From contig NZ_MWPH01000003.1 in the NCBI RefSeq assembly GCF_002177135.1, forward strand, positions 186,001 to 250,000: DNA of 64,000 bases, given 5' to 3'. This DNA is from Natronolimnobius baerhuensis. Its GTDB lineage: Archaea > Halobacteriota > Halobacteria > Halobacteriales > Natrialbaceae. The notes beneath the pieces were generated by a model. It was not told the DNA's origin and made no database searches. It was given only the letters and a program-made list of their open reading frames with translations. The position numbers and the translations under genes were made by a program. The stretch's first letter is position 1; the number at the start of each line of letters is the position of its first letter. This document shows positions 41,339 through 42,975 of this stretch, in pieces.

Positions 41339-41782
41339 ATGAACGTACGGGATGCCCTCGAGGCCGACGCTGATGCGCTCGCGGCCATTGCTGATTCTCC
41401 AACTGATGTGATGCGAAATCTCGTCCACGACCGGACAGTTCGCGTCGCCGAGGACGGCACCCACGACCCGAACGCCGATATCGAAAACTCACAGTACGAT
41501 GGCTCGAATCCCGAAGACCTGCTGGGATTCATCAGTTTTGACGCGCGCGAAGAAACGGTACACATCACACAACTCGATGGAACCGGGGACGCCTGCAAGC
41601 GACTGCTTGGCGAACCAGTCCGATTCGCCGAACGCGAATCGATGGCCGTCGAGGTGCTCGTTTCTCCGGAGACGGACGCAATCATCGGTGCCGCGGAAGA
41701 CCTCGGCTTCGAACGACAGGGACTGGGGCCGCGATTCAACGGTGCCCAGACGGTTCGATTTCGACTCGAGCCCTCGAGGTAG
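41339..41782 (+). CDS. GNAT-like domain protein, weak acetyl-CoA motif
   Basis: 147 residues starting MNVRDALEADADALAAIADS, the usual first strand and helix of GNAT acetyltransferases, with GFISFDAREETVHITQLDG and a C-terminal half VEVLVSPETDAIIGAAEDLGFERQG that matches the end of the fold (xLGFxRxG). The central Q/RxxGxG/A loop is not obvious, so catalysis is doubtful. It is divergent from lysC. Confidence 0.72.
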   Translation: MNVRDALEADADALAAIADSPTDVMRNLVHDRTVRVAEDGTHDPNADIENSQYDGSNPEDLLGFISFDAREETVHITQLDGTGDACKRLLGEPVRFAERESMAVEVLVSPETDAIIGAAEDLGFERQGLGPRFNGAQTVRFRLEPSR

Positions 41783-41793
41783 GGTCCCGACTC

Positions 41794-42546
41794 CTACAGT
41801 TTGTGTCGAAACGCCCGCAGCGCGTTCTCTCCCGTCTCGGTGAGGAGCACTTGCTTGGTCCGCCCAACCGATTCGACGTCAATATAGCCGATTTCGAGCA
41901 GCGGGTCGATGATTCGGTTGTTCAACAGGGCGAATTTCGCCTTGTCGTTGGCCGGTTGGGATTTCGTCATAAAGGTGAGATCGTTTTCTTCAGCGAAGTC
42001 GATTAGATCGCTCTTTTTCGGCGTGTAAGACGCTGTATCCTTGTTCTCGATGAAGTTCAGAATGCGGACCTGATCCGCTGTCGGCGTCTCGAGTGGATAG
42101 GATGGTAACTGTTCGGCGACCGTCATCCCTGCCGTTCGTGGCGTGTCAGTGACCGGATGCGCTCGTTCCTCAGGGTGGACGTAGTAGCCGTTCGCGTCCG
42201 TCGCCATGCAGGCAAGCGCCGCACCAATATCAGCCAGTTTCGGCCCACTCGAGACATTGACGCGGACGATATCCTCGCGGTACTCGTCGACGATGGTCGT
42301 AATCTCGCCGAGGACATCGTACATATCGCCCAGGTCGATTTCGCGGACGTGGACCGCCACACCGTGATCGGAAAGTTCCTCGATCAGTTGGTCGTGATAC
42401 GGAACCGCCTCGCCGTCGTCGTCCTCGAGCAGATACAACAAATCAGCGCCGTATTCGAGGACAGGCTGGCAAATTCGGTCGTACTCGTACCCAAGCGGGG
42501 CGATATGGACCTCGACGATTGGCCGAAGCTCCGTGTCACCTGTCAT
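41794..42546 (-). CDS. HFX_2341-type transcriptional regulator: CARF-like domain plus winged helix
   Basis: 250 residues from the ATG at 42546 (MTGDTELRPIVEVHIAPLG). The N-terminal 130 residues are Rossmann-like; VRVNVSSGPKLADIGAALACMA near 100-120 resembles the ligand loop of CARF domains in Csa3 and Csx1-type proteins (NxTGGTK-like). The C-terminal part, ADQVRILNFIENKDTASYTP to the end, is a winged helix with LLNNRIIDPLLEIGYIDVESVG. Csa3-type proteins respond to cyclic oligoadenylates; whether this one does is open. No CRISPR array or cas gene is in the window. It is divergent from a second regulator across palindromes. Confidence 0.82.
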   Translation of the reverse strand: MTGDTELRPIVEVHIAPLGYEYDRICQPVLEYGADLLYLLEDDDGEAVPYHDQLIEELSDHGVAVHVREIDLGDMYDVLGEITTIVDEYREDIVRVNVSSGPKLADIGAALACMATDANGYYVHPEERAHPVTDTPRTAGMTVAEQLPSYPLETPTADQVRILNFIENKDTASYTPKKSDLIDFAEENDLTFMTKSQPANDKAKFALLNNRIIDPLLEIGYIDVESVGRTKQVLLTETGENALRAFRHKL

Positions 42547-42568
42547 TGTAGATAGTATACGTAGTACT

Positions 42569-42585
42569 GATACTATAGTAGTATC
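42569..42585. promoter_or_regulatory. 17-bp palindromic operator-like site
   Basis: GATACTATAGTAGTATC has perfect seven-base arms (GATACTA and TAGTATC) around TAG. Its centre lies about 30 bases upstream of the ATG at 42546, on the probable TATA position of the CARF-like gene. The neighbouring bases repeat the theme (GTATAC, GTAGTAC). An auto-repressor site is the simplest reading. Confidence 0.6.
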
Positions 42586-42596
42586 GATTGTATGCA

Positions 42597-42612
42597 TAGT
42601 TTCATGAAACTA
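42597..42612. promoter_or_regulatory. 16-bp perfect palindrome between divergent regulators
   Basis: TAGTTTCATGAAACTA is its own reverse complement. It lies in the 96-base space between the starts at 42546 and 42643, about 38 bases before the latter, which would place it over the B-recognition element of that promoter. It also contains an in-frame ATG upstream of the chosen start of the second gene. Confidence 0.55.
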
Positions 42613-42642
42613 CTGAATAGAACCCCCGATATAGAGGGATAT

Positions 42643-42975
42643 ATGGCACGACAGCATTACCGACAACAGAACCTCGAGGCGAACATCGATATCGATGTCG
42701 AGGCGGCACTGACCCTGCTTGGGGACGAGTACGTCCAAGAAATCTTCGCGGTGCTTCGCGAGGACCCAGCGACCGCTCGAGAGTTGACGGATCGCTGTCC
42801 GGGATCGAAGGTGACGATCTACCGCCGGCTGAACGATCTCACGGACGCCGGACTCGTCGAGTCAGAGCCACAGATTCGACCCGATGGCAATCACTGCAAG
42901 CAGTACCGCGCCGTCGTCGACGAACTGACGATTTCGCTGACTGGAGACGAATTCGAAGCGACGGTCGAGGCGTGA
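42643..42975 (+). CDS. Winged-helix transcriptional regulator (ArsR-like)
   Basis: 110 residues from the ATG at 42643 (MARQHYRQQNLEANIDIDVE); upstream ATGs at 42592 and 42604 are in frame but lie in the palindromic region. The core LTLLGDEYVQEIFAVLREDPATARELTDRCPGSKVTIYRRLNDLTDAGLVESE is a helix-turn-helix with wing. It is common in haloarchaea as a small DNA-binding protein. Divergence from the CARF-like gene with palindromes between suggests joint or cross regulation. Confidence 0.82.
   Translation: MARQHYRQQNLEANIDIDVEAALTLLGDEYVQEIFAVLREDPATARELTDRCPGSKVTIYRRLNDLTDAGLVESEPQIRPDGNHCKQYRAVVDELTISLTGDEFEATVEA

Follow-up and report, generated by a model that had tools for sequence, protein, structure and literature searches.

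The window is the whole analysed stretch of 64,000 nucleotides from the genome of Natronolimnobius baerhuensis. It contains a gene for a CARF-winged-helix (CARF-wHTH) protein, referred to below as the CARF protein, and a divergent winged-helix (wHTH) gene, and a phased array of short units is located between them (Table 1). An earlier sequence-only reading had described the first gene on the minus strand with the loop VNVSSGPKLADIGAALACMA, as well as the divergent gene and a 96-bp gap (42547–42642), and all of these were found to be exactly present. The start of the wHTH gene in the list of open reading frames (42592) is probably too early; the ATG at 42643 was preferred since it fits the orthologues and the 96-bp gap. 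A small gene (41339–41782) adjoins the CARF gene, shows no Pfam or NCBIfam matches and keeps this position in the closest relatives alone (loci L003 and L004).

Table 1. Features of the CARF-wHTH locus (window positions unless residues are given)
Feature	Position	Strand	Details
CARF-wHTH regulator gene	41794..42546	-	250 aa, ATG at 42546
HFX_2341_N (PF19810)	residues 12-127 of CARF protein		Pfam, 9.9e-44
DUF6293_C (PF22665), winged helix	residues 146-246 of CARF protein		Pfam, 8.5e-36
Six-unit phased array, candidate operator, unit consensus ATAGTAT (7 bases)	42552..42602		computed from sequence
Array unit starts	42552, 42561, 42570, 42578, 42587, 42596		9-bp steps, 8 bp at centre
Core inverted repeat ATAGTAT-N11-ATACTAT	42552..42576		orthologue alignment
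Palindrome 1, GATACTATAGTAGTATC	42569..42585		array units 3 and 4, over probable CARF-gene TATA
Palindrome 2, TAGTTTCATGAAACTA	42597..42612		overlaps array unit 6
TGAATAG stretch, probable TATA-like element of wHTH gene	42613..42619	+	placed by spacing
Divergent winged-helix gene, 110 aa, HTH_20 / HVO_A0261_N	42643..42975	+	start inferred from orthologues

The CARF protein belongs to the DUF6293 family, with Pfam scores of 149.1 bits for PF19810 (gathering score 30) and 122.9 bits for PF22665 (gathering score 27). The PADLOC profile CARF3 (PDLC01847) matches it directly over nearly the full length (1.2e-96); the profile itself is annotated with neither a function nor a ligand or operator. A search of PDB sequences using phmmer with the CARF protein gave no matches. 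Modeling using AlphaFold2 on an alignment of 30 orthologues led to a confident CARF fold (pLDDT 92.1) with 58 structural matches in the PDB at E ≤ 0.001, the best of which were CARF ring nucleases, Csm6, Csa3 with cA4, and Cam1. TM-scores normalised to the whole query were moderate (about 0.4–0.5), as expected if the superposition is mainly that of the CARF domain. Thus, the structure prediction and comparison with Csa3 that had been called for earlier bear out the proposed arrangement of an N-terminal CARF fold and a C-terminal winged helix, which is the domain layout of Csa3, in agreement with Pfam and PADLOC. A scan of genome contigs with the single CARF protein as a query found no relatives; an alignment-based scan yielded 79 named loci, and the relatives were haloarchaea. 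The gene product is best explained as a transcription regulator of CARF-winged-helix type, a member of the DUF6293 family that works without CRISPR.

The divergent protein was previously described as ArsR-like. Its winged helix was confirmed as a generic HTH_20 / HVO_A0261_N domain (35.3 bits for HTH_20 against the Pfam cut-off of 27), but the score for the ArsR/SmtB metalloregulators was only 23.2 bits against the NCBIfam cut-off of 55. A search with the wHTH protein gave matches in 241 of 243 genomes, which says little about orthology because winged helices cross-match.

The array spans 51 bp of the intergenic gap, and a lag of 9 was prominent in the autocorrelation of nine orthologous gaps. 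Three array matches were found in the window compared with none in 100 shuffles of the window, and the three-unit array pattern with up to two mismatches has no other site in the 3.9-Mb genome. In 11 distinct in-register orthologous sequences, units 1 and 3 (ATAGTAT and ATACTAT, with 11 bp between the arms) are invariant, and the invariant central bases are common to several array units. The two palindromes reported in the gap by the sequence-only reading are both exactly present, but they turned out to be parts of, or to overlap, one six-unit array and not to be two separate elements. Palindrome 1 is imperfect (7 of 8 arm positions pair), and its ATACTAT half is the invariant one, whereas palindrome 2, correctly called perfect in the window, pairs at 6 of 8 positions in the sister species and usually at 2–4 of 8 elsewhere, so that it is not conserved as a palindrome.

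To evaluate the distribution of the array, 243 genomes of the order were searched. With up to one mismatch, 63 separate sites were found in 62 genomes, compared with two matches of the reversed control pattern. At least 43 of the 63 sites had a DUF6293_C gene no more than 1.3 kb away, the chance expectation being about 0.2% (under 1%), and the same was true of at least 19 of the 21 exact sites. In the loci fetched by protein similarity, the array was present in 52 of the 79 named loci and the control pattern in none; 26 of 78 named DUF6293 loci were without an array at the threshold used. The best reading is that the candidate operator is a phased array of shared architecture across the DUF6293 family. 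The pairing of a DUF6293 CARF-wHTH regulator with such a dedicated candidate operator, common to the family and independent of CRISPR, is real.

Three layouts were distinguished. In layout a, to which the window belongs, the array lies between the CARF gene and the divergent wHTH gene. In layout b, found in other Natrialbaceae, it precedes a convergent gene (gene X), mostly 500–900 bp past the CARF stop codon. In layout c (Haloarcula, Halosimplex, Halorussus, Haladaptatus, Halomarina and Halocatena) it follows the CARF stop codon, mostly within 320 bp and at about 900 bp in some Haloarcula; beyond the array come a TATA-like element and then a noncoding segment. Gene X (loci L078, L080, L084, L088 and others) encodes a protein of about 190–230 aa and has the array in its promoter region. 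No Pfam matches were found for this protein; the top structural matches of its model (pLDDT 82) were TFIIB and cyclins, all of them weak (best E 0.05), so that a TFB-like protein is only a suggestion. When 86 proteins were placed in a tree, all but one of the 16 layout-a rows fell into a single clade (support 100/99), which adjoins the layout-c Haloarculaceae. Since this clade spans Natrialbaceae, Haloferacaceae and Haloarculaceae, horizontal spread of the module is suggested. The layout labels required 20 changes on the tree, compared with 47 in shuffles; 26 rows had no detectable array.

Leaderless transcripts are common in haloarchaea. From the distance to the ATG, the TATA box of the CARF gene is probably located on array unit 3. 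On the other side, the wHTH start is preceded at a distance of about 25 bp by the TGAATA element, and a similar TGAATA is found in most of the in-register orthologues. The array thus covers the probable CARF TATA box and stops about 11 bp short of the wHTH TATA-like element. The autoregulation suggested earlier is supported by this conserved position, binding by the CARF protein itself being predicted. The CARF protein, probably a dimer like Csa3, would bind the array through its C-terminal winged helices, contacting the core inverted repeat and the further units between the two genes. Occupancy of the array would block TBP at the CARF promoter, leading to autorepression, and would also control the wHTH gene; DNA binding would change once the CARF pocket holds a ligand. 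Autorepression would be confined to this clade, since elsewhere the array does not lie upstream of the CARF gene. All these characteristics allow us to consider it likely that the array serves the CARF regulator as its operator, the regulator repressing itself in this clade and controlling its wHTH neighbour; binding, the direction of regulation and the ligand are predicted parts of this reading. Against it stands the description of Crr, a relative considered below, as a global regulator in PMC11434293, the array being a single site.

The array could instead be bound by the divergent wHTH protein, which would repress both genes, with the CARF gene as a target or co-regulator. Within the window clade, most orthologues retain the pair of CARF and wHTH genes, and in two genomes (G014 and G227) the array precedes a gene homologous to the wHTH partner (in G014, with 58% identity over 86 aa), with the DUF6293 CARF gene elsewhere in the genome. 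In a third genome (G069, locus L100, contig C37), an exact array was observed near a ParA-like gene, with no DUF6293_C among the matches listed. These arrays away from DUF6293 genes mean that the wHTH protein or another factor could be the binder, and the wHTH protein is a fair rival. However, in the layout-b Natrialbaceae, Haloarcula, Halorussus, Haladaptatus and others, the array stands beside the CARF gene with no adjoining wHTH homologue, and in Halopenitus the divergent gene looks by eye like a different wHTH and the array is still kept. Binding by the wHTH protein was judged to be rather unlikely. The gene after the array changes by lineage while the DUF6293 gene stays, which makes the DUF6293 protein the most economical binder.

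Two further alternatives concern the identity of the CARF protein. It could be a Csa3-type CRISPR regulator sensing a type III cyclic tetra- or hexa-adenylate. Csa3a of Saccharolobus (PDB 2WTE, 6W11, 6WXQ; PMC8699464) likewise combines a CARF domain with a MarR-like wHTH and has related pocket motifs and a palindromic promoter site, to which cooperative binding was reported (PMC8699464). The Csa3 pocket motifs are T-h-G-F-(N/D)-E-X4-R and L-X2-G-h-R, and the phosphates of cA4 are contacted by Gly96 and Arg98 in Csa3a (PMC8699464). The CARF protein contains the related, though not identical, motifs PLGYEYDR (G19, E21, R24) and V98-S-S-G101-P-K103, in which G101 and K103 take the positions of Gly96 and Arg98 in the phosphate-binding loop. 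Across the aligned orthologues, E21 and R24 do not vary and G19 hardly does; K103 is missing from the Natrialbaceae layout-b clade. A phosphate-bearing ligand is thus plausible from these residues, and the small nucleotide ligand envisaged earlier is possible. On the other hand, Csa3a is CRISPR-linked, binds cA4 and recognises TCCC-N8-GGGA, whereas the gene of the window has an ATAGTAT array and neither CRISPR nor Cas10. The observation that no CRISPR lies nearby holds and is extended by the lack of Cas1 matches in the whole host genome, so the association with cas genes that characterises Csa3 is lacking. A search for synthetases of cyclic oligoadenylates, proposed earlier, detected no Cas10 palm2 domain (PF22335) in 61 genomes (the host and 60 relatives), the five control genomes being positive. 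Because of the absence of Cas1 and of Cas10 palm domains, a type III cyclic oligoadenylate is unlikely as the signal. The CARF protein also falls below the cut-offs of the Csa3 models, narrowly for Pfam PF22662 (Csa3_N; 26.4 against 27 bits) and widely for NCBIfam TIGR01884 (33.8 against 60.2 bits), and a Csa3-type role was considered very improbable. PMC11434293 proposes diadenylate cyclase (DacZ) as a ligand source.

The CARF protein might also be Crr (HFX_2341) itself, the known global repressor. According to PMC11434293, Haloferax mediterranei Crr acts as a global regulator, and its overproduction lowers cas transcripts; Crr is encoded away from CRISPR and is a proposed nucleotide sensor; like the CARF protein, it has a CARF-type N-terminus (Pfam HFX_2341_N) and a winged helix. 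However, the CARF protein scored only 14.8 bits against the HFX_2341 equivalog model NF051475 (cut-off 500), and a true orthologue with 573.6 bits was found in the same genome (G000:C1:84898-85260; L002:949-1974). This refutes the identity with Crr at the orthologue level and leaves it next to no probability; the score and the separate orthologue allow us to regard the two proteins as distant paralogues. Moreover, the available part of PMC11434293 gives no operator for Crr and calls for ChIP-Seq, in contrast to the single dedicated array of the window gene. The host genome thus carries two CARF-type regulators.

The noncoding segments of layout c were also analysed. In Haloarcula and Halosimplex, the segment forms a single long closing stem, with both partners altered in 5 of its 11 consensus pairs, and in Halorussus a strong hairpin lies at the expected transcription start. 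A part of CCCCGCTGACGCTTCGGCCCTCC is found in most layout-c segments, and the 13-mer GCTTCGGCCCTCC is present in 241 of 243 haloarchaeal genomes. Several examined copies of the 13-mer belong to a conserved, RNA-like element located between genes, the 56-nt core of which hardly varies. A promoter-like CCGGTA-TTTTAAG suggests that this putative universal RNA is read in the opposite sense, to which the layout-c RNAs would be antisense. Antisense matches of 11–24 nt, or close to it, were found in 20 of 23 layout-c segments, compared with at most 13 nt in dinucleotide shuffles and at most 10 nt on the other strand; two of the 20 were reached by 1–2 of 200 shuffles. In some lineages, the array appears to switch on a putative small RNA complementary to a near-universal RNA. 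No credible Rfam match was found for the array-driven noncoding segments or the universal RNA; weak miRNA and guanidine-II matches below the gathering scores were set aside as chance. A description of the near-universal RNA is absent from Rfam and from the part of the literature searched, and sRNA132 was rejected as a candidate as it is restricted to Haloferax. Among 2.9 million viral contigs, 115 exact matches of the antisense motif and 18 of the array were scattered and were taken as chance.

More tentatively, and with the chances slightly below even, DUF6293 CARF regulators may act through one portable phased operator that serves different targets in different lineages. The target would be a wHTH gene in some, a TFB-like cyclin-fold gene in others, and elsewhere a small antisense RNA directed at an almost universal, apparently undescribed RNA of haloarchaea. 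If so, the CARF ligand signal would control an RNA sponge with CRISPR uninvolved. In the literature searched, neither a ligand nor a binding site is known for CARF regulators outside CRISPR, and the conserved array, a short exact pattern, provides a ready DNA probe for binding tests and ligand screens. If the antisense RNA of the related genera is real, CARF sensing would be linked to RNA-based control, and it would point to an RNA present in almost all haloarchaea and missing from Rfam.

Other copies of GCTTCGGCCCTCC lie outside this element; examples were seen within a coding-like stretch and in clusters of repeats. Three loci (L231, L232 and L233, in genomes G155, G085 and G136) contain clusters of 3 to about 10 copies or near copies away from the CARF gene, and these clusters are possible multi-site RNA sponges. 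A copy of the RNA-like element is also present in the host genome (G000:C1:1044447, locus L247), with the core UGACGCUUCGCUUGGAGGGCCGAAGCGUCAGCGGGGACCAAUUCAGGGCGGCAAGC.
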